The translations under genes and the position numbers were made by a program. Under the pieces are notes generated by a model. It made no database searches and was not told where the DNA came from. It saw nothing but the letters and a program-made list of their open reading frames with translations. From Rhodothermales bacterium (lineage in GTDB: Bacteria > Bacteroidota > Rhodothermia > Rhodothermales > UBA10348): a DNA stretch of 64,000 nt. Position 1 is the first letter of the stretch. Each line of letters opens with the position of its first letter. This document shows positions 50,678-64,000 of this stretch, piece by piece. The stretch covers positions 1,261,806-1,325,805 of the forward strand of contig JAEPNP010000001.1 of the NCBI GenBank assembly GCA_017643395.1, given 5' to 3'.

Positions 50678-51247
50678 TCAGGCCGTCGACACGCGGGTGA
50701 TATAGTCACCCTTGTCGGTGTTGACCTTGATCGTATCGCCTTCGTTGATGAAGAGCGGGACGTTTACCACCGCGCCGCTTTCGAGCGTAGCGGGTTTGGT
50801 GGCGCCGGTGGCCGTGTCACCCTTGAGGCCGGGGTCGGTCTGGGTAACCACCAGCTCCACACTGTTCGGAATCTCCGTGGTCAGGGGCTGATTGGTCTCG
50901 GCGTGGAAGAGGATGTCGATGGTGCCGCCTTCCTTGATGAACTCCCGACCCGGCACACTTTCGGCCGGCAGCGACAGCTGCTCATAGGACTCCTGGTTCA
51001 TGAAGTGCAGCCCGAGGTCATCCTCATACAGGTACTGGTGGGTGCGCCGCTCCACGCGTGCGGTCTCCACCTTTTCACCGGCTCTGAACGTGTTATCCAC
51101 GACCCTGCCGGTCTTCACATTGCGCAGTTTGCTGCGGACAAAGGCGCCGCCTTTCCCGGGCTTGACATGCATGAACTCGACGATCTGCCATAGATCGCCG
51201 TTCCACATCAGAGTCAGTCCGTTTCTGAAGTCGCTCGTGTCCGCCAT
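50678..51247 (-). CDS. efp: Translation elongation factor P
   Basis: Relieves ribosome stalling at polyproline stretches. The 189-aa product has the three-barrel tRNA-mimic fold, with the tip-loop lysine in [11 protein letters not shown] and the C-terminal [13 protein letters not shown]. Several window proteins have Pro-rich runs that would need it, such as the adhesins and the AccB linker. It leads the efp-accB-accC cluster. Confidence 0.97.
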
Positions 51248-51321
51248 GTGCTGCTATTCAGTTCGCGCAAAGACCACCAACTTACCCGGTTAAGGCCGTG
51301 TTAGTCAATTCGCAGTGCCCC

Positions 51322-52914
51322 TCAGCGTCTGAATTCGCGGATAAGAGCGTCTATATCCGCCTCGCTGAGTCCGTCAGGGTTTTTGGGCGATGGGCTCTGT
51401 TCAGCCGGGGCCCGACCGGCCGTTACGACCGGGTTGCCGGCACGGGCGCGGAGCCGGTCTTCAATCTGGCCAATCCAGTTGCCGTCGCCGGCCGGCCGCG
51501 GGGCCGGAGTCGGGCGTGCGGGCGCGGAGCGCGTGGCCGGTTTGGCCGCCGGTGATGATGCCCGGGAGTTCACAGGATTCGTTTCAAACGCCACGCGCTT
51601 GATGTTCAGCAGGTGCATGGGGGAGATGTTGTCGCTCGTGATCGAGCCACCTACGGTGCCGGGCCCCAGGGTCATCGAAGGAAAAAGGCGATTGGTATAG
51701 CCCACCGAGCCCAGCGCAGACACGGAGTTCACCACGATGCGCATCGCCGGCTTCTGAAGGGCGAATGCCTCGATGACACGTTCATTGCCGGCATGGAGGG
51801 CAAGGGTGTGCCCCATGCCACCGTAGGCGAGCACTTCCATGCACCGCTCGCAACCGGCCTCCCAGCCGTCTGCGGTGTAGAACGTCAGGATCGGCGACAG
51901 CGTCTCTCTGGACAGGGGGTCTTCGTGCCCGACCTGGCTGGATTCCGCCACCAGCGCCCTGGTGCCCCTTGGGACCCGGAATCCGGCCATTTCCGCGATG
52001 GCTTCGGGGGCCTTGCCCACCTGCTCGATGTTCAACTTGCCATCGACCACAACGGTCTTCTCCAGGAGCGTGCGTTCCTTGCCGGCCACCAGGTAGGCCC
52101 CGGCGGCCTGCAGGCCCTCGAGCAGGGCCTTCTTGACGGGCAGGTCACAGATGATGCTGCGTTCGGTGGAGCACAGCGTTCCCCAGTCGAAACTGGCGCC
52201 GTAGACCAGGTCCTTGGCCGCCTTGCCGACATCCGCGCTGCGGTCCACATAAACCGGCACGTTGCCGGAGCCGACGCCGTAGGCCGGCTTGCCCTTGGAG
52301 TACGCCGCCCGGACCATCGCCGAGCCTCCGGTAGCCAGGATCAGATCCACCTCGCGGTCCTCCAGCAGGGCCTGGGTGCCGGCAAGGCTGACCTCAGTCA
52401 TGCAGGCGAACAGTCCTTTGGGTGCCCCGGCCTTGTACGCAGCCTCTGCCACGGCGCCCAGCGCATCGGCCGTGCACTTCCGGGCTCGGGGATGCGGGCT
52501 CATCACGACCGCGCATCGCGACTTGGCCGCGATGATCGCCTTGTACATGGCCGTGGATGTTGGATTGGTGGACGGGATCAGCGCGGCCACCACACCCATC
52601 GGCGTGGCCACCTCCCAGATGGAGTCCTCCTCCAGCTTCCTGATGATGCCGACGGTCTTCATGCCCTGCATGCGCTCGTGCAGCATGCGGGTGGCAAACA
52701 GGTTCTTTTCCTTTTTGCTCTCGGGCCGTCCGAATCCGGTCTCTTCGTGGGCAGCGCGGCCCAATCGGTCGGCCTGGGCGGCGCCGGCACGTGCCATGGC
52801 GTCGACGATCCGGTCCACCTGGGCCTGATCGAGCTTCTTGGCCTCATGTTGGGCGTTCCGCGCGGCGCGAAGCAGTTCGCGGGCTTGCTGGATGGAGCGG
52901 AGATCGGAGTCCAT
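51322..52914 (-). CDS. CoA-acylating aldehyde dehydrogenase (EutE/PduP-like) with C-terminal encapsulation-peptide-like tail
   Basis: Converts an aldehyde plus CoA and NAD into acyl-CoA, or the reverse. The 530-aa product has the catalytic C248 in DWGTLCSTER, the PSTNPTST loop and the MHLLNIKRVA strand typical of EutE/PduP. The catalytic region ends near residue 446. Two short amphipathic helices follow, separated by Pro/Ala-rich linkers: helix 1 at about 479-492 (NWIGQIEDRLRARA) and helix 2 at 516-530 (LSEADIDALIREFRR). This linker-plus-helix tail is how cargo is tethered inside bacterial microcompartments. No shell-protein gene is in the window, so the tail may act elsewhere or be a remnant. 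Confidence 0.88.
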   Translation of the reverse strand: MDSDLRSIQQARELLRAARNAQHEAKKLDQAQVDRIVDAMARAGAAQADRLGRAAHEETGFGRPESKKEKNLFATRMLHERMQGMKTVGIIRKLEEDSIWEVATPMGVVAALIPSTNPTSTAMYKAIIAAKSRCAVVMSPHPRARKCTADALGAVAEAAYKAGAPKGLFACMTEVSLAGTQALLEDREVDLILATGGSAMVRAAYSKGKPAYGVGSGNVPVYVDRSADVGKAAKDLVYGASFDWGTLCSTERSIICDLPVKKALLEGLQAAGAYLVAGKERTLLEKTVVVDGKLNIEQVGKAPEAIAEMAGFRVPRGTRALVAESSQVGHEDPLSRETLSPILTFYTADGWEAGCERCMEVLAYGGMGHTLALHAGNERVIEAFALQKPAMRIVVNSVSALGSVGYTNRLFPSMTLGPGTVGGSITSDNISPMHLLNIKRVAFETNPVNSRASSPAAKPATRSAPARPTPAPRPAGDGNWIGQIEDRLRARAGNPVVTAGRAPAEQSPSPKNPDGLSEADIDALIREFRR

Positions 52915-55768: not shown

Positions 55769-56257
55769 AATCGGCTCATGGGGCTCAAAAACGCTGTTTT
55801 TTGTTCGGGCGATGGACTCATAGCTGGACTCGCGCCAATCAGAATGAGACAACCGACGGGAGCGCGCCCGGCGGCTGACACACGCCCTGCAAGCGGAGTG
55901 CCGGTCTCGATGTGAGCTGCAGGCGAGTGCGAGTGCGTATCCGGGGCGCGGCCGATGTGCAGCCAGCTCCGATCGCCCGGGGACGGCCGCATATATGAGG
56001 TATCCCGCCGAATCGACTTCAGATCTCGGCGAGAGGGCCGATCAAAACCTTTGCATGCCACCACCCTGGCCGGGTGTGGTGTGTCGATACCGATCTCAAA
56101 CAGGGATCGACCCCTCACGAGTCAAGGCGATGCAACTGGCAAATCAAGCCAATATCGACGGTTTTCCGAGCCTCCCGGGCTGCGGGACGAATGCGGCATG
56201 CCCTTTGAGGAAGGGCTCCGCGGCTCCACGCTCCACCGAATACTTCGCCTGCTCATC

Positions 56258-57511
56258 ATGAAAGACACGCCCGCAAGCATGTCCTCTTTCGCAGCAATGC
56301 TCCCTTCCGGCATCGATCCGATCGATGAGGAATGGGGCGGCCTCTACCGAGGCGGTGCATATCTCGCCTTCGGTCGCGCCGCGACTGGCCGAGGCCTCAT
56401 GACACTTCGATTTGCTCAGACCGGGGCCACCGGCGGCGAGAAGTGTCTTTTCATCGCATCGGACCGCCCGCGGGATCTGGTAATCCAGGCCGCGTCGATC
56501 GGGTTCGATCTGAAGCAGGCCCAGCAGGACGGGCTGATCCGCCTGATGCGGATTCCGCCCATGATGAATCCCCAGGCCATGGGAGACGACGCCGTGGCGA
56601 AGGCCCTCTGGGACCTGGTGACCATCATTCGCAAACAACGTCCGGACCGGCTGGTCATCAATGACTTCATGCCGTTCGTGATGTTCAGGTCTTTCGATCG
56701 CTTCCGGATGGAGTTCATCCGGATGCTGGAGCAGATCGACAGCCTCGATACCACGGTCATGGTTGCGCTGCCGGAGCCGGCCAACCCCCAGTCCCGCCGT
56801 GTGATCGACTTCATGGCCGGCCAGATGACCGGCGCGGTGCACATTGAAGCAGCCGACGAGGAGCCCACGAGCACGGAGCGCCGGCTGACCCTGATTCCGC
56901 ACATCGGACAGATCAAACGCCAGGTAGTGCGCCATTGGGATCTTGCGGACGTGGTGACCACTCCGGGCCAGGCACCGGTGATCACGGAGGAGGTCTCCAT
57001 GCCGGATGTGACCCCCGCTCCGGAAGCTCCGCGTTTCCCGCATGTGGCACCCGATGCCCTGGGTGAGGAGCCCGAAGCGCCGAGCGCACCGAAGGAAGAC
57101 GCCATGGAGCGCTACTCGGACCGCGTTTCATTCCGGGATCGCCTGCAGAACTTCTTTATCAACCGCGAGGATGTGGCGAGTCCCTTCCTGCTGCTGGCCA
57201 TGCGCATGGACCAGACCAGCGACCGCGGTCCGGTGGACTTCGAGTTCATCATTGACCTGGTGGCCGACAGCCTGCGCCCCCAGGACGACATGCTCATCAG
57301 CCCCATCAATGAGCGGCTGGTAGTACTGCTTGCCGACAGCAAGCCCGAAGAGGCACAGGGCTTCTTTGCCCGCCTCAAAAACCGGCTCCGCGCCGACGCG
57401 CCCCAGCAGGCCGATCACCTGCTGCACGCCGTGTCCGCCATCGTGGTGCCCGACGGCCGTCCGTTCCAGAGCGCAGACGAATTCCTCACCTACGCACTGG
57501 ACGAGGCCTAA
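56258..57511 (+). CDS. KaiC/RecA-like ATPase-fold protein fused to a degenerate GGDEF-like domain
   Basis: The 417-aa cytoplasmic protein has two parts. Residues 15-235 resemble KaiC/GvpD-type RecA folds: a loop at 39-46 (GRAATGRG) in the Walker A position but with Arg for the catalytic Lys, a hydrophobic strand with D136 in RLVINDF as Walker B, and GEKCLFIASD. A Pro/Ala/Glu linker (236-283) follows. Residues 290-417 have the size and strand pattern of a GGDEF domain (FLLLAMRMDQ, FEFIIDLVADSLR, RLVVLLADS), with the GGDEF motif replaced by PINER (349-353) and an RxxD (R340-P-Q-D343) in the place of the I-site. It is probably a c-di-GMP receptor rather than a cyclase (inference). The open frame to 55955 is dropped because the ATG at 56258 precedes the conserved fold. 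It is first in the locus; the next gene starts after 17 nt. Confidence 0.75.
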   Translation: MKDTPASMSSFAAMLPSGIDPIDEEWGGLYRGGAYLAFGRAATGRGLMTLRFAQTGATGGEKCLFIASDRPRDLVIQAASIGFDLKQAQQDGLIRLMRIPPMMNPQAMGDDAVAKALWDLVTIIRKQRPDRLVINDFMPFVMFRSFDRFRMEFIRMLEQIDSLDTTVMVALPEPANPQSRRVIDFMAGQMTGAVHIEAADEEPTSTERRLTLIPHIGQIKRQVVRHWDLADVVTTPGQAPVITEEVSMPDVTPAPEAPRFPHVAPDALGEEPEAPSAPKEDAMERYSDRVSFRDRLQNFFINREDVASPFLLLAMRMDQTSDRGPVDFEFIIDLVADSLRPQDDMLISPINERLVVLLADSKPEEAQGFFARLKNRLRADAPQQADHLLHAVSAIVVPDGRPFQSADEFLTYALDEA

Positions 57512-57528
57512 ATCCCGACCCCGACGCC

Positions 57529-60500
57529 ATGACCAATCCCCGGCATATCCTTCTCATCCTGGTCGCCTCGCTGTGCGTGGCGGCCACTCCTGTTTCCGTG
57601 CAGGCCCAGGACGTTGCTGCGCAATCACGCGCGGAAACGGCCATCGAACAGGGCCGCTACGATGACGCCATCAGCATTCTGAACGGCGTCATCCAGCCCG
57701 GAACCATTGACACACGCGCGCTGCTGCTGCGTGCCCGGGCCTATCGGCTCATGGGCAACGAGTCGGCCTCGGAGAGTGATTTCCGCGCGGTGCTAGAGAT
57801 CGACCCGGCGAACCGGGAAGCCCTGGACGGGCTCCAGGAGCTGCGCGGACAGCGCTCTCCAGCCACCGGCAACCTGGGCAGCCTGCGCAGGCTGGTGGAG
57901 GCCAACCCGGACAACCTGGCCTTTCTGATTCGCTACGCGGACGCACTTTTTGATGCGCGCTACTGGCAGGAGGCCGCCGACCAGTACGGACTCTATCTGA
58001 ACCGCACGCAGGGCACGCCCGACATCGTACAGCGCTATCTGATTGCCATCGCAAACTACCCGGGAGACAACGCGCTGGGTGAGGCGGTGGCTGACGAGTA
58101 TGTAGCCATCTACACCACCGACGACGACCTCTGGATGCGTCTCGGTTACTTCCGCCTCTGGCAGGGCAACTATGCCGGTGCCCTCGAGGCCTGTGAGCAG
58201 AGCCTGCTGTTGAATCCGGCCAACGCCGAGTCCCGCGACTGTCAGCTGCAGGCGCGCAATCCGGACGTGATTGCCCGTTCGTCCACCTATCCCATAGACG
58301 TCGCATTTCGGGATGTGCGCGCCAATCCGGACGATCGTGCCCGTCGCTACCAGCTCATCGACCTCCTGATCGAGGCCGAGCGTTACTTCGAAGCCCGCCA
58401 GCAGCTGGACATCCTGGCGGACGCCAATCGGGGCCAGGCAGAGTGGCAGCGCCGCGACCGTGTGGTCGAGCAAGGCCTGCGCGTCAGCCCGGGTGCCCTT
58501 TCCACCTTTCCCATCGACGTAAAGACCCGCGCGCTGCTGCAGAATCCGCGGCAGGATGACGTGCGCTTTGAGCTCATCGACCTGCTGGTCGCGGACGATC
58601 GCTACTTCGAGGCGCAGCAGAACCTGCAGTACCTGCGCAACGAGCACGGCAACAGCGAGCGCTGGCGCACACGCTGGGAAGATGTCAGCGCAGAACTGGC
58701 CAAGCTGGATGACGGCGGCCGCTCGCGCCTGTCCACCTATCCGATCGATGTGCTCACGCGAGACCTGATGGTCAACCCCAATCAGGACCAGAAGCGTTTT
58801 GAGCTCGTGGAGCTACTGATTGAGAATCGCCGCTACTTCGAGGCGGACCAGAACCTGGCCGTGCTGGCACCGCGCCATCGCCGGACCAACAACTGGCGTC
58901 GTCTGAATCAGCGGGCGGAAGCCGGCTTGCGTGCAGCGGAGCGCCGGCGTCCCACGCCCCAGCAGGAGTTCATTGTGGACCGCCTGTACCGGGAGCTGAA
59001 GGCGACACCGGGCAACGACACCAAGCGGTTCCAGCTGGTGGATCAGCTGATCAAGTACGACCGCTACGCTGAGGCCTACGACCAGTTGGTGCTGCTGCGG
59101 GATCGCCACGGTGAAGGCCGTCAGTGGCTGAGTGCTTTCATCAAAGTGGACGATGGGCTGGTGCGCGCCGGTACGCCGATCTACGCGATTGACCGGTGGA
59201 CGTACCGGTTGATGTTTGATCCTTCGGACTCCGCCGTGCGCTTCCAGCTGGTCGATGCCCTGGCAGAGGAGGGCCGCGTGGCCGAGGCGCTCGAGATCCT
59301 GACCGACAGCCGGTACACCGATGTCGGCAATCCGGGCTACCAGTCGCGCCTGCGCCGCATCGCCGATCTGCGCTTTGCCATTGCCGAGCAGCGTGTGGCC
59401 GAACTGGAAGACCGCCTGGTCGCCAATCCCAACGATTCAGCGGCTCTCCGCGAGATCGCCGACCACTACCTGGTGCTGGGTCGTGACGAGGAGGCCTTTG
59501 AGACCTACGCCGCACTGCTTTCCATCGAGCCAGGCAACGACGCCATGCGCGCCGACTTCGCCGAGGCCCTGCAGTCCCGCGGCTACTACGACCAGGCGCT
59601 CATGCAGGCCGACTACCTGCTGGATCGCCAGCCCGATAACACCGAATTCCAGCGCCTCTTTGTGCTGGCGTCCATTGCTCAGGGAGACCTGGATCAGCTG
59701 GGCGAGGCCTACGTGACCAACCTCATGGACGGCCCCGGGAGCAATGATCCGGAGCTGCTCCTGGTGCTGGCCGAGTACCGTCTCCTGCGCGGAGACGTGG
59801 AGGCCGCCGACAACTACGTGCGTATGGCGGACGCGCTGGGCGACACCCGGTTTTCGACTCGCATTAGTACGGTACACCAGCTCGTCAGCCGGGAGCGCAT
59901 TCGGCTGGCCGAGGCTGGCCGTCTGGACATGCTGAACGAGGCCCGTCGCCTGGCCGCTGCACGCCAGTTCAACCGGGCCATTGACGCCTATGAGGACTAC
60001 TTCGAGCAGCAGGGCCGCCGCTCCCGCTCAGAGCTCAAGGAGCTGGCTCAGGTCCACACGGCGGCAGCCGACTACGTGACGGCCCTCTCGATTCTCAATG
60101 CCCTGCAGGAGCAGGCCTGGGAATACGACGTGGCCAAGGAAATCGGCCGCAACCAAATCTACCGCGAGGACTACTCGGGCGCGCTGCGCACGCTGGAGGA
60201 CCTGGCGAATCGCAACCCGCGCGACTTCGAGGTCCGCTTCCTGATGGCCGACGCCTACCGCGAACTGGGTCTGTTCACCCAGGCCGAAGCTGTGTATGCA
60301 GATGCCCAGCGTCTGGCAGATGCCTCTGAGGTGATCGAAGAGCGCAGCGCCGCACTCGACGTCTCCATGCGCCAGAGTCTGGCGCAGAGCGGTGAGTGGC
60401 AGGGCATGGACTTCGCCGGCATCATTGTGCCCGTTGCCGAGGCCGTGGTGGCCCGCGGCGGCGGCACCCGGTATGACCGATGGGCGCAGGGTATGCAGAC

Positions 60501-61392
60501 CCACGTGACCATTCCGTGGGGCTACGGCACGGTGCTCATGGCCGGTGTGAACTCCCACTTCATAGACGGCACGCGCCAGCTGATTCCGAACTCGCCGACC
60601 ACGCGGGGACGCATCAACCAGATCTTTGCCGCGGGCTACCGCGACCTGACGCCTCCGGAAGTGGAGTACAACCACGCTTCGTATACCAACCGGGTTTCGG
60701 GCGAAGTGGGCATCTTCGATTACGAAGGTGGCCGTACGGTAGGCTTCGGCGGCATCCGCTACTGGAGGCAGGACCCGGGCGTTTATCGCGGCTCGGTGGG
60801 TCTGCGCACCAGCGAAGGCGCCATCGAACTCTGGTCACCGGCAGGCGGCGAGTACAACCTGCGCTTGACGCAGCTGAACATTCGAGGCCACGTGCCGAGC
60901 GTCATGCCGGACTCCACGCTGCGCTTGAGCGGCAATGTGTCATTCAATGTGGTGCGTGACAACTTTGGCAACACCGGCAACAGCAGCGATACCAACTTCG
61001 GCACCAACATCCTGCTGGAAGGCTCCTACAAGATTCTCGGGCAGACCTGGCTCGGGCTGACCTACTACCAGATCGACTACCGGAGCCGCACGGACCTCTA
61101 CTTCAGTCCGCGCAACTACGCCAGCTACGACCTCTTCCTGGAGTACGAGAAGAACGTCCCGTTCCAGTCGTACCTCCGTCTCCGCGGCGCGATGGGCATC
61201 GTCTCCCGCTCGTCGGGTTTTGTCTCCCGTCGCATCGAGATGGACTGGATCCGGCGCCTCGCGACCAACTGGTCCTTCAACATGTCGGGCTCTCTCGGCC
61301 AGTCCACCCGCTCGCTCGGGTCGGGCGCCACCAGCTTCATCGACCGCTACAACACGTTCACCGTGTCGGCGGCCCTGTCCTGGACCCTCTAG
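57529..61392 (+). CDS. TPR plus outer-membrane beta-barrel exopolysaccharide exporter (BcsC/PgaA/PelB-like)
   Basis: The 1287-aa product has a signal peptide (cleavage after VQAQ). Residues 30-940 are TPR-like helical repeats; within them five units of about 75 aa (about 249-620) share a YPIDV.TR start and an RYFEA..NL core, a pattern I do not know from BcsC. From about residue 945 it turns to alternating beta strands rich in Tyr, Trp, Gly and Asn, ending SAALSWTL with the aromatic/hydrophobic end typical of BAM substrates. This matches the periplasmic scaffold plus outer-membrane pore of synthase-dependent polysaccharide export. It lies between the putative regulator and the synthase gene. 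Confidence 0.85.
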   Translation: MTNPRHILLILVASLCVAATPVSVQAQDVAAQSRAETAIEQGRYDDAISILNGVIQPGTIDTRALLLRARAYRLMGNESASESDFRAVLEIDPANREALDGLQELRGQRSPATGNLGSLRRLVEANPDNLAFLIRYADALFDARYWQEAADQYGLYLNRTQGTPDIVQRYLIAIANYPGDNALGEAVADEYVAIYTTDDDLWMRLGYFRLWQGNYAGALEACEQSLLLNPANAESRDCQLQARNPDVIARSSTYPIDVAFRDVRANPDDRARRYQLIDLLIEAERYFEARQQLDILADANRGQAEWQRRDRVVEQGLRVSPGALSTFPIDVKTRALLQNPRQDDVRFELIDLLVADDRYFEAQQNLQYLRNEHGNSERWRTRWEDVSAELAKLDDGGRSRLSTYPIDVLTRDLMVNPNQDQKRFELVELLIENRRYFEADQNLAVLAPRHRRTNNWRRLNQRAEAGLRAAERRRPTPQQEFIVDRLYRELKATPGNDTKRFQLVDQLIKYDRYAEAYDQLVLLRDRHGEGRQWLSAFIKVDDGLVRAGTPIYAIDRWTYRLMFDPSDSAVRFQLVDALAEEGRVAEALEILTDSRYTDVGNPGYQSRLRRIADLRFAIAEQRVAELEDRLVANPNDSAALREIADHYLVLGRDEEAFETYAALLSIEPGNDAMRADFAEALQSRGYYDQALMQADYLLDRQPDNTEFQRLFVLASIAQGDLDQLGEAYVTNLMDGPGSNDPELLLVLAEYRLLRGDVEAADNYVRMADALGDTRFSTRISTVHQLVSRERIRLAEAGRLDMLNEARRLAAARQFNRAIDAYEDYFEQQGRRSRSELKELAQVHTAAADYVTALSILNALQEQAWEYDVAKEIGRNQIYREDYSGALRTLEDLANRNPRDFEVRFLMADAYRELGLFTQAEAVYADAQRLADASEVIEERSAALDVSMRQSLAQSGEWQGMDFAGIIVPVAEAVVARGGGTRYDRWAQGMQTHVTIPWGYGTVLMAGVNSHFIDGTRQLIPNSPTTRGRINQIFAAGYRDLTPPEVEYNHASYTNRVSGEVGIFDYEGGRTVGFGGIRYWRQDPGVYRGSVGLRTSEGAIELWSPAGGEYNLRLTQLNIRGHVPSVMPDSTLRLSGNVSFNVVRDNFGNTGNSSDTNFGTNILLEGSYKILGQTWLGLTYYQIDYRSRTDLYFSPRNYASYDLFLEYEKNVPFQSYLRLRGAMGIVSRSSGFVSRRIEMDWIRRLATNWSFNMSGSLGQSTRSLGSGATSFIDRYNTFTVSAALSWTL

Positions 61393-61424
61393 GACCGGAC
61401 AGGCAGCCAAACAGGTAACTACCC

Positions 61425-62921
61425 ATGGCCAACGAAACCCAGAATCAGAACCAGGAGACGACTCCGGCTGCGCCGGCTCAGTCGCGCGCGGATCTGGAAC
61501 GCACGCAGTTCGCGCCGGTGCGCCGCTCTGACAGCGAGATGGTCGGCCCGCGCGAGGACGAGTCCGTCCTGGTGCGTCGCATCTTCGTCTACGGATTCCT
61601 CTCGCTGATCCTCTTCGGCATCATCTGGTTCTTCATGGAGGACCCGAATGGATGGCTGAGCGGCTGGACCGGCGAACCCGTGTCCCTGTCCTGGGCCGGA
61701 CTCATTGTGTACTCGTCCATCGTGGCGTTGGTGCTCTTCCTGGTCATCCTGCTCTTCAGGTACCTCAGCCTGATGAACATGGCCTACCTGAATACCACCA
61801 AACACACGATTGAGGAGGGGCACGACCCCAACTTCCTGCCGCCGGTGTCGATCATCGTGCCGGCGTACAACGAGGGCAAACTGCTCAAGTCCACGGTGGC
61901 CAGCCTCCTGGAGATGGACTACCCGCAGTACGAGATCCTGCTGGTGGATGACGGCTCCACGGACGATACGCGGGACGTCGCCCGCGAGGTGGTGGGCATC
62001 TACCGCCAGGGCACCGTGGAGGTGCGCCTGGTAGAGAAACCGAATGGCGGCAAGGCCACGGCCCTGAACGCCGGAATCCAGGTCTCCCGGTACGACTACG
62101 TACTGAACGTGGACGGCGACTCGCAGCTGTCCCCTGACACGCTTCGCAAGACCATCCGGCATTTTGTGGATCCCCGCCTGGGGGCCATCGCCGGTAATGT
62201 GAAGGTGCTCAACCGCGACAACGTCTGGACCACGCTGCAGGCGCTGGAATATGTGGAGGGCCTCAATATGGCGCGCTCCGCCCAGTCCATCGTCAAGCTG
62301 GTCAACATCATTCCGGGCCCGCTGGGGCTGTTCCGCAAGCAGGCCATTCTGGATGCGGGCTGGTACAGCAGCGACACGTTCGCCGAGGATGCGGACATCA
62401 CGCTGAAGATCATCCGCGCCGGCTGGCGTGTGGAGTACGAGCCGGATGCCAAGTCGTACACCGAGGCTCCGGACACCATCGTGGACCTCCTGAAGCAGCG
62501 GTACCGCTGGACGCGGGGCATCATTCAGGCTGTGCGCAAGCACAACGACCTGTTCTTCAATCCCACGATCAACTTTGGCGGCACCATTGTGATGTGGTCG
62601 ATGGCCTTTGAGGCCCTCATCTGGCCCATCATGAACATCTTCGCCAACGCCTACTTCATCTTCATCGCGCTCGTGTTCGACATGAGCTACTACCTGGTCT
62701 ATTGGTGGCTCAGTCTCACCATTCTTGACCTGATTGCCGCGTTGTACTGCGTGGCGGTGGAGAAGGAAGAGGCGCGTCTGGTCTTCTACTCGCTGTTCTA
62801 TCGCCTCTTCTTCATCCTGATTGTGGACGTGTGTAAAACGTTCGCGACGGTGGAGGAATTCCTCGGTATCGGCATGAGCTGGGGCAAGCTGGAACGCATC
62901 GGAAGTGGCTCAAAAGCCTGA
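61425..62921 (+). CDS. Processive GT2 family polysaccharide synthase
   Basis: The 498-aa inner-membrane glycosyltransferase is of the PgaC/BcsA/hyaluronan-synthase type. Two membrane segments (about 52-70 and 88-112) precede the GT-A domain, with LVDDGSTDD (D175, D176), NVDGDS (D230 and D232), FAEDAD (catalytic E321-D322) and QRYRW (358-362), the complete D,D,D,QxxRW set. Several C-terminal membrane segments follow. No PilZ domain is present, so c-di-GMP control, if any, must come from another protein. The polymer is unknown; PgaC-like features suggest an N-acetylhexosamine or hexose beta-glycan. It lies 32 nt after the exporter gene. Confidence 0.93.
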   Translation: MANETQNQNQETTPAAPAQSRADLERTQFAPVRRSDSEMVGPREDESVLVRRIFVYGFLSLILFGIIWFFMEDPNGWLSGWTGEPVSLSWAGLIVYSSIVALVLFLVILLFRYLSLMNMAYLNTTKHTIEEGHDPNFLPPVSIIVPAYNEGKLLKSTVASLLEMDYPQYEILLVDDGSTDDTRDVAREVVGIYRQGTVEVRLVEKPNGGKATALNAGIQVSRYDYVLNVDGDSQLSPDTLRKTIRHFVDPRLGAIAGNVKVLNRDNVWTTLQALEYVEGLNMARSAQSIVKLVNIIPGPLGLFRKQAILDAGWYSSDTFAEDADITLKIIRAGWRVEYEPDAKSYTEAPDTIVDLLKQRYRWTRGIIQAVRKHNDLFFNPTINFGGTIVMWSMAFEALIWPIMNIFANAYFIFIALVFDMSYYLVYWWLSLTILDLIAALYCVAVEKEEARLVFYSLFYRLFFILIVDVCKTFATVEEFLGIGMSWGKLERIGSGSKA

Positions 62922-63083
62922 TCGGGCCAATCTCATTTTGATTACCAGTAGCAAGAATGAGACTGAATCCCACCCAAAAAACCCTCAAAACGGCCAAAAC
63001 ACGGGGGTGTGCGATTTGGGCACAGTGCTTGATGAACGTCCTGGTGAATTGAAACCCTAAGTGCGCCTCCCGGCGCGACTACC

Positions 63084-63524
63084 ATGGAACTAGTCCCGAT
63101 TCTCTCGACGATCATCCTCGTAGGCACGATCGCAACGTTCATTCTCGCCGTTGCTGCCTACGTCCTCTACAAGATTCGCGAAGGCCGCGCCCGCGAAAGC
63201 CAGCAGCAGCAGACCTACATGCAGCAGGAGCCGCATGTCCTGGTTGCTCCGGAAGGCTCCCGCCCGGCCATCGCCATCAACCAGTACCAGGGTCAGCCGC
63301 AGCAGGCCGCCATGTATCAGCCGGCTCCGGGCCAGCAGGTGCAGCGCCAGCAGCTTCAGGCTCCTCCGCAGGGCCAGAACCCGAACTCGTTGTTCTGGGA
63401 GTACACTGACAAGGGCTTCGTCCCGGTCGATCCCCAGGAAGAGCAGGTTCAGGCTCAGCAGCAGCAGCAGGCCCAGCAGTCGCAGCAGCAGTCCCAGCAG
63501 GACGAAGGCTACGCCTGGCTGTAA
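63084..63524 (+). CDS. Single-pass membrane protein with Gln-rich tail
   Basis: The 146-aa product has one N-terminal membrane helix (LSTIILVGTIATFILAVAAYVLY, residues about 8-30, given in part) followed by a low-complexity region very rich in Gln, with some Pro and Ala. No family is recognised. Its position between the synthase and the extracytoplasmic protein genes is that of small synthase partners such as PgaD, but sequence similarity is not evident. A 162-nt gap precedes it, with an inverted repeat TCTCATT/AATGAGA near 62932-62963. Confidence 0.65.
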   Translation: MELVPILSTIILVGTIATFILAVAAYVLYKIREGRARESQQQQTYMQQEPHVLVAPEGSRPAIAINQYQGQPQQAAMYQPAPGQQVQRQQLQAPPQGQNPNSLFWEYTDKGFVPVDPQEEQVQAQQQQQAQQSQQQSQQDEGYAWL

Positions 63525-63568
63525 GCCGACCCAACCGAGTATCCCTGTAACCCCGACCACCTGAACCG

Positions 63569-64000
63569 ATGGCACTGCCACGCCTGGAAAGAGTCAACAC
63601 GCTGTGGTTCCTGACGCTTGGCGTCACGGCCCTGGCCGCGGCCATCCTGGTGTACATCCTGCTCCTGGAGTCTGCGCTCGGCGCCTTCTCCATCCGGGAT
63701 GCCTCACCGGCCGCCATCGGCCAGACGTCGCGCCCGAGTGTGGCTCTCCTGCAGAGTGACTACACCAAGACGGTGCACCAGCGCCTGAACCTGAGTGACA
63801 CCACCACCACCTGGCTGGACGAGACCCTGCTCTCGTGGCGCCGGTTCCTGGTGGAGAAGGAGCGTCAGATCTCCTTCCAGGACATCAGCGATCAGGACCT
63901 GGAGAATGGATTCCTGGACGACTACGACGTCCTGATCCTGCCTTCGGTACGCGCGATGAGCGATGTGCAGATCCAGCGCATCCAGGAGTTCATGCAGCAA
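63569..64000 (+). CDS. Membrane-anchored extracytoplasmic protein of the exopolysaccharide locus (partial, 3' end cut)
   Basis: An open frame from the ATG at 63569 runs without a stop to the window edge, so only the first 144 aa are visible. One membrane helix (about 11-34) is followed by an extracytoplasmic segment with VALLQSDY, then YDVLILPSVRAMSD and an IQEFMQQ helix, a pattern like the GATase-like domain that precedes some polysaccharide deacetylases. A deacetylase or hydrolase role (PgaB/PelA analogue) would fit the locus but cannot be confirmed here. Confidence 0.7.
   Translation, partial: MALPRLERVNTLWFLTLGVTALAAAILVYILLLESALGAFSIRDASPAAIGQTSRPSVALLQSDYTKTVHQRLNLSDTTTTWLDETLLSWRRFLVEKERQISFQDISDQDLENGFLDDYDVLILPSVRAMSDVQIQRIQEFMQQ

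Follow-up and report, generated by a model that had tools for sequence, protein, structure and literature searches.

Introduction

PelD of the Pel system has membrane and GAF domains, and in the Pga system c-di-GMP acts through PgaC-PgaD. The closest described counterpart of the protein considered here is BcsE of Escherichia coli. As set out in PMC7439463, the N-terminal domain of BcsE was modelled on KaiC and has a diverged Walker A motif; it is accompanied by a degenerate REC domain and by a degenerate GGDEF domain with an RxxD I-site (R415-D418). The same source describes bcsE as the lead gene of bcsEFG, and BcsE and PelD as proteins that bind c-di-GMP through the I-site of a degenerate GGDEF domain (PMC7439463). 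A 2024 cryo-EM study presents BcsE as a trio of degenerate NTPase, REC and GGDEF domains, the NTPase being catalytically incompetent, and reports that the one-helix protein BcsF recruits BcsE, its tail extending the NTPase sheet by one strand (PMC11470070). Going by listings of the open-licence literature, no relevant system besides BcsE was found for KaiC, GGDEF and exopolysaccharide, no report tied BcsE to Bacteroidota, and none dealt with Rhodothermales exopolysaccharide and c-di-GMP or with a KaiC-like polysaccharide operon in Ignavibacteria.

The window, that is, the whole stretch of DNA that was analysed, comprises 64,000 nucleotides from a Rhodothermales bacterium. A preliminary description of one of its genes had proposed a new architecture of c-di-GMP receptor for polysaccharide secretion. 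In this study, the encoded protein, here called KGD, is compared with its orthologues, with the genes around it, and with BcsE.

Materials and methods

Families were searched with Pfam and NCBIfam models, and profiles were compared using hhalign. RxxD was read in 48 of the 50 KGD-positive relatives. G080 and G085 were left out; the match in the former and the piece read in the latter carry the canonical GKT. Also dropped from the RxxD counts were L091 and L093 (duplicates of L055 and L122), L154 and L155 (lacking the C-domain), L157 (a canonical KaiC), and L012 and L019, which end before the site; L150 and L151, C-terminal pieces of the same genomes as the last two, were counted. Outside the class, 22 KGD sequences were read from 37 genomes. 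The 27-sequence KGD alignment holds 27 of 30 sequences (L012, L019 and the near-duplicate L029 left out), and the 66-sequence alignment retains a few duplicates.

Results

The KGD protein

The features of the protein are as follows.

56258..57511, + strand: KGD, a KaiC/RecA-like (degenerate NTPase) domain, a linker and a degenerate GGDEF-like domain in an intact 417-aa frame
56291..56965, + strand: KaiC/RecA-like domain, residues about 12-236 (PF06745, alignment with KaiC, column counts)
56372..56398, + strand: degenerate Walker A GRAATGRGL, residues 39-47 (sequence, column counts)
56966..57109, + strand: Pro-rich linker of 48 residues, 237-284 (sequence)
57110..57508, + strand: putative degenerate GGDEF-like domain, residues 285-417 (hhalign, 95.3% to 20 PF00990 domains)
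57275..57286, + strand: RPQD, residues 340-343, at the predicted I-site position (profile alignments)
57305..57319, + strand: INERL, residues 350-354, aligned with GGDEF (profile alignments)

The coordinates and frame first assigned to KGD are correct. The frame stays open 5' of 56258 (518 aa from 55955), and L006, an orthologue of 89% identity, has a stop codon nine codons ahead of the same Met. Complete orthologues measure 414-664 aa in full length. KGD was matched in 50 of 100 relatives, the copy read in G080 being a canonical KaiC. Across the phylum, 83 of 394 genomes gave a match, and some of these matches are likewise canonical KaiC. Viral contigs gave 81 pattern matches and no KGD relative.

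Residues 16-172 match the Pfam family KaiC (PF06745) with an E-value of 5.6e-17. The N-domain also matches solved KaiC chains, and in a profile comparison it reaches 99.8% with KaiC-like domains of the phylum. Its Walker A reads GRAATGRG, in which Lys is replaced by Arg (Arg45) and Thr/Ser by Gly, as the preliminary description had observed. Among the sequences having this column, Arg occupies the Lys position in 42/45 from the window's order and in 18/22 from outside the class (60/67 pooled); five sequences have Lys. Three outside-class sequences, L107, L114 and L115, keep an intact GKT, unlike most of the family. Of the P-loop glycines, G39 and G44 are both present in 45/45 sequences of the order and in 22/22 and 21/22, respectively, outside the class. 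An acid stands at position 136 in 44/47 sequences of the order (D in 43, E in 1) and in all 22 outside the class (E). In the alignment with KaiC, D69 and R70 fall at the positions of the KaiC Glu pair, and the column count found no KGD sequence with Glu at position 70.

The linker is too short, at 48 residues, for a REC domain, and it contains no Pfam match at E <= 1. Neither a Pfam match to GAF (E <= 1) nor, by eye, a long hydrophobic stretch of a membrane region was found in KGD.

In the C-domain, the match of residues 305-379 to GGDEF_2 is weak (E 0.0025, under the cut-off); E. coli CdaR is, we assume, a protein of this type. When the 27 C-domains were scanned alone, 24 matched GGDEF_2, 13 GGDEF and 9 PelD_GGDEF at E <= 1, and the corresponding numbers for whole proteins were 22, 5 and 3. 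PelD_GGDEF (PF16963) matches the window C-domain with E 0.064 (13.6 bits, cut-off 27), and the best of the 27 members reaches 5.9e-4. The C-domain profile was compared with 20 PF00990 domains of relatives and reached 95.3% with either alignment (27 sequences, E 2.3e-8; 66 sequences, E 2.4e-8), a score that none of 100 column-shuffled controls of the larger alignment attained. The C-domains of the 22 outside-class sequences alone matched poorly, at 3.5%, again with no shuffle of 100 at the same score (20.5 versus 19.7 for the best shuffle). The proposed pairing of a KaiC-like with a degenerate GGDEF-like domain is supported at the level of sequence.

No GG[DE]EF active site was found in KGD. 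The preliminary description was right that the signature is missing; it had read PINER in its place, and the segment aligned is INERL, with a one-residue indel ahead of it. Its placement of RPQD at the I-site appears sound: R340 lies on the I-site Arg in both profile alignments, and the I-site Asp falls on D344 (27 sequences) or D343 (66 sequences), that is, within one residue. Two structures were predicted, each from the window protein together with two close relatives (88-92% identity); pLDDT was 36.8 for the full length and 57.0 for the C-domain. Both show an all-helical C-domain, which would, if anything, speak against a GGDEF fold at a confidence too low for use.

The operon and its conservation

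KGD is followed by the genes listed below, in the order KGD-TPR-GT2-smTM-deacA-deacB.

57529..61392, + strand: TPR protein, 1287 aa, PgaA-like among export porins (PgaA model TIGR03939, E 1.9e-12, under cut-off)
61425..62921, + strand: GT2 glycosyltransferase, 498 aa (best NCBIfam match PgaC TIGR03937, 200 bits, cut-off 422)
63084..63524, + strand: smTM, 146 aa, with one N-terminal hydrophobic segment (by eye), a P/Q-rich linker, the tail motif FWEYTDKGFVPV and a C-terminal GYAWL
63569..64000, + strand: start of deacA, 770 aa, which extends past the window to L001:14687 (Pfam)

The TPR gene begins 17 bp after KGD, and its product would presumably form an outer-membrane barrel. As the preliminary description had noted for the synthase, Pfam finds no PilZ domain in the GT2 protein; a search of the window's own genome also found none at E <= 0.001. 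No Pfam family matches deacA above its cut-off. The product of deacB (619 aa), which lies after deacA outside the window, matches Polysacc_deac_1 with 24.8 bits (cut-off 23.1). We infer the activity of the operon and the nature of its polymer. A promoter and terminator scan of 56000-64000 was uninformative, with no promoter-like site (1.5 expected) and three terminator-like sites (4.1 expected).

The position of KGD at the head of a polysaccharide-type operon, proposed from the window, is conserved. A TPR match directly follows KGD in 16/20 loci of the order, including one interrupted by a contig end (G010) and one short match (G006); in the other four (G008, G032, G036 and G041), neither TPR nor GT2 was matched next to KGD. 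Outside the class, 37 genomes have KGD, and it is followed by TPR, GT2, smTM and deacA in 13 of the 14 read, with one additional gene between TPR and GT2 in 4 of the 13. The remaining locus, L123 (G413), has other downstream genes. The gene upstream of KGD outside the class encodes a GH9 glycosidase in the two loci tested.

Among the 100 relatives, deacA occurs in 24, of which 23 are KGD-positive (the exception is G017), and deacA is absent from 27 of the 50 relatives with KGD; some of these absences may reflect fragmented assemblies. G008, G041 and G060 have KGD without the adjoining operon. Together with the 27 relatives that have no deacA, these genomes indicate that KGD may have an additional role.

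Two observations concern the surroundings of KGD. At L041, L053 and L126, which have KGD and no polysaccharide operon, downstream genes on the opposite strand resemble, by eye, PIG-L deacetylase and leucyl-tRNA synthetase. Upstream of KGD in the window, the opposite strand carries EF-P and an aldehyde-dehydrogenase-like gene (50678-52914, - strand), and both adjoin KGD in 13/20 loci of the order, a conserved address. Both genes stand beside the operon-free KGD of G060, and that of G008 has the aldehyde-dehydrogenase-like gene beside it.

The small membrane protein smTM

The N-terminal hydrophobic segment of smTM is strongly conserved in and outside the class, and the linker is variable. The tail motif reads FWEYTDEGFVPV or KFMRYTxEGYV, and most sequences have a Trp near the C-terminus. 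smTM was found in 24/100 relatives, of which 23 are KGD-positive. G032, whose genome is complete and has no deacA, encodes, directly after KGD, a small protein that has a hydrophobic segment and the tail FLEYDGETFVPV...GGFAWR. The smTM hydrophobic-segment profile matches this protein with E 0.076, below inclusion. The tail-motif pattern, scanned over 18 sequences, matches it along with the smTM proteins of the window and L109, plus one chance match on the opposite strand in L051. The G032 protein was added to the smTM alignment, so its later smTM match holds by construction. At L055:10325-10738, in a complete genome that lacks the operon marker, an smTM-like protein stands directly after KGD. 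A profile comparison found no sequence kinship between smTM and BcsF (2.4%).

Comparison with BcsE

KGD is not a BcsE. It has no match to PF10995 (BcsE) at E <= 1, no REC domain, and a different operon. The window's own genome has no PF10995 match at E <= 10 in a search that found the E. coli positive control, and E. coli BcsE itself matches PF10995 with E 1.5e-227. When the 66 KGD sequences were compared with 8 BcsE sequences by hhalign, the full-length profiles reached 71.4% (E 3.6e-5, KGD 14-198 on BcsE 8-176), the N-domains 89.5% (E 2e-6, BcsE residues 1-217), and the KGD C-domain and BcsE 349-523 9.3% (E 0.0035), with RPQD on RTGD (R415-D418). In each of the three comparisons, all 100 column shuffles fell short of the observed score. 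The 27-sequence alignment reached 2.2% with BcsE, and its C-domain 0.6%; a single BcsE sequence did not match KGD. A useful match thus came to light only with the 66 sequences.

Canonical KaiC-like domains also match the BcsE N-domain, at 51.8% over 118 columns versus 86.6% over 165 for KGD with the same settings, so that the kinship between KGD and BcsE may merely be that of the whole KaiC superfamily. By this modest difference, KGD appears to lie slightly closer to BcsE than canonical KaiC does. True GGDEF domains reach 0.3% against the same BcsE alignment; thus, the weak match of the KGD C-domain says little either way.

RxxD and c-di-GMP genes

A PF00990 match is present in 25/100 relatives. 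Among the KGD-positive relatives, 36/50 have none (35/48 without G080 and G085), and these include G036, G032 and G029, each at least 99% complete. Within the family of the window's genome, GGDEF and EAL are both missing from 16 of the 19 genomes that carry KGD. The window's own genome encodes one GGDEF-EAL protein with intact signatures; hence, c-di-GMP binding is possible in the window's genus and by the KGD of the window itself.

Of 49 orthologues of the order, drawn from 48 genomes, 30 have RxxD; none of the 22 read outside the class does. The motif is thus largely not conserved in orthologues, an outcome that the preliminary description had named as speaking against its reading; the linkage to exporter and GT2 genes, which it had proposed to survey, is kept. 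RxxD and PF00990 occur together in 8 cases, RxxD only in 22, PF00990 only in 5 and neither in 14, which gives an odds ratio of 1.02 (p = 1) in counts that ignore kinship. The sole PF00990 match of G047 is degenerate, and p is still 1 when this genome is counted as being without one. G037, G041, G051, G066 and G074 have PF00990 genes and no RxxD in the KGD read. With respect to deacA, RxxD is found in 18/23 sequences with the marker versus 12/26 without it (odds ratio 4.2, p 0.039, kinship ignored).

Outside the class, every one of the 37 genomes with KGD yields a single PF00990 match, in a frame of about 620-650 aa, and all 10 of these proteins read (L129-L138) lack GG[DE]EF. The protein of L129 has, by Pfam, two GAF domains and a degenerate GGDEF domain behind a hydrophobic N-terminus, a PelD-like layout. 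In other genomes of the order, the PF00990 matches of L139 (G028), L073, L074 and L077 show WEAD, WEGD or WESD where GGDE would stand, and that of L139 reads, by eye, as receiver, degenerate GGDEF and receiver. DAC, the c-di-AMP cyclase domain (PF02457), occurs in 59/60 relatives.

Discussion

The preliminary description holds for the domains, the RxxD at the I-site, the operon and the PilZ-less synthase. It does not hold for the novelty of the architecture: as described in PMC7439463 and PMC11470070, BcsE already combines a KaiC-type N-domain with a degenerate GGDEF domain carrying RxxD and heads bcsEFG, so the pairing of two dead domains, one KaiC-like and one GGDEF, already has a precedent in polysaccharide secretion. 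Nor does the c-di-GMP receptor stand across the family, with 36/50 KGD-positive relatives lacking PF00990 and no association between RxxD and PF00990.

The explanation that we favour, giving it an even chance of being right, is that KGD is a BcsE-like cytosolic adaptor, probably anchored by smTM and uncoupled from c-di-GMP in most carriers. KGD would serve a synthase-dependent polysaccharide secretion system and work as BcsE does. Its KaiC-type domain would have lost ATP hydrolysis and become an assembly platform, and the catalytically dead GGDEF-like domain would be a module docking near the GT2 synthase. With its hydrophobic helix, flexible linker and conserved tail motif, smTM is a candidate inner-membrane anchor for KGD and would most likely hold it in a BcsF-like manner. 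In most carriers the system would run without c-di-GMP, and RxxD would be a variable remnant or serve another purpose. It is conceivable, although doubtful, that KGD and smTM form an ancient adaptor of two parts at the membrane for polysaccharide synthases, a dead KaiC-type motor with a dead GGDEF domain plus a one-helix anchor, which does without c-di-GMP across most of its distribution. KGD and smTM would then be the simpler form, with degenerate NTPase and GGDEF domains only, of a design that enterobacteria, having added a degenerate REC domain, employ as the c-di-GMP sensor BcsE.

We consider it unlikely that KGD is a c-di-GMP receptor whose RPQD I-site binds the nucleotide and turns the PilZ-less GT2 on. 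In its favour, the I-site of the diguanylate cyclase domain in the window's own genome, which has one intact GGDEF-EAL protein and no PilZ match, places its Arg on R340 and its Asp on D343 or D344; BcsE and PelD are described as binding c-di-GMP in this way (PMC7439463), 9/27 C-domains match PelD_GGDEF (best 5.9e-4), and RxxD is commoner with deacA. Against a receptor count the 36/50 KGD carriers without PF00990, the 16/19 genomes of the window's family without GGDEF and EAL, the even spread of RxxD over genomes with and without PF00990 (8/22/5/14), and the five genomes with PF00990 genes and no RxxD; outside the class, RxxD is missing from all 22 sequences and GG[DE]EF from all 10 PF00990 proteins read. 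The 22 of 30 RxxD-bearing orthologues from genomes without a PF00990 match would suit a GGDEF-like domain that binds another nucleotide made by these bacteria, such as c-di-AMP, with RxxD kept for that, and so would the DAC domain in 59/60 relatives. Being found in nearly every relative, DAC indicates nothing specific, however, and RxxD is absent from 19/49 sequences of the order; we judge this reading very unlikely.

A nucleotide switch, in which the Arg-bearing P-loop of the KaiC-like domain binds ATP and the oligomeric state controls the synthase, would account for the retention of G39, G44 and the acid at 136, and for the Walker A Lys of five sequences, three of them as GKT. Arg in 60/67 sequences, the absence of Glu at position 70 and the catalytically incompetent NTPase reported for BcsE (PMC11470070) argue against it, and we judge it decidedly unlikely. 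That KGD has a function unrelated to polysaccharide secretion and merely adjoins the operon seems highly improbable: linkage and gene order are kept in the order (16/20) and outside the class (13/14), and the lower frequency of RxxD without the marker (12/26 versus 18/23) fits relaxed constraint. The 27/50 KGD-positive relatives without deacA, and the operon-free KGD of G060, G041 and G008, the last beside the aldehyde-dehydrogenase-like gene, would favour such a function, but absent markers may partly reflect fragmented assemblies.

If the adaptor reading is right, the BcsE-type adaptor extends beyond cellulose operons and into another phylum. RxxD in a degenerate GGDEF domain is insufficient to call a c-di-GMP receptor, since it is equally frequent in genomes with and without a PF00990 match. 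If KGD works without c-di-GMP, it would reveal roles of such adaptors other than sensing, roles that in BcsE and PelD are not easily told apart from sensing.

Among known systems, the KGD N-domain belongs to the same superfamily as KaiC and the KaiC-like ATPases. The KaiC clock protein has two KaiC domains, a Walker A Lys and a Glu pair, whereas KGD has one domain, Arg45 and D69/R70 and is distinguished by its fusion to a GGDEF-like domain. Diguanylate cyclases have a GG[DE]EF active site where KGD has INERL. PelD appears to share the degenerate GGDEF domain and RxxD at the I-site, and one third of the KGD C-domains scanned (9/27) match PelD_GGDEF at E <= 1, but membrane and GAF domains precede its degenerate GGDEF, and KGD has a KaiC-like domain instead. 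The Pga system is similar in view of the PgaC match of GT2, the PgaA match of the TPR protein and the Polysacc_deac_1 match of deacB; the first two lie under the equivalog cut-offs, and Pga is not known to have a counterpart of KGD. BcsF of E. coli resembles smTM in layout, not in sequence. BcsE differs from KGD in having a degenerate REC domain between the NTPase and GGDEF domains, where KGD has the Pro-rich 48-residue linker, and in its linkage to bcsA, bcsQ and bcsG rather than to TPR-GT2-smTM-deacA-deacB with a PgaC-like GT2; the GT2 of the KGD operon has no PilZ, and most KGD carriers have no PF00990 match. BcsE and KGD share a degenerate N-terminal NTPase domain of KaiC/RecA type and, by alignment, a C-terminal degenerate GGDEF domain with RxxD (in the window protein; variable in the family), and each is the leader of a polysaccharide operon that includes a small one-helix membrane protein, BcsF in the one and smTM in the other.
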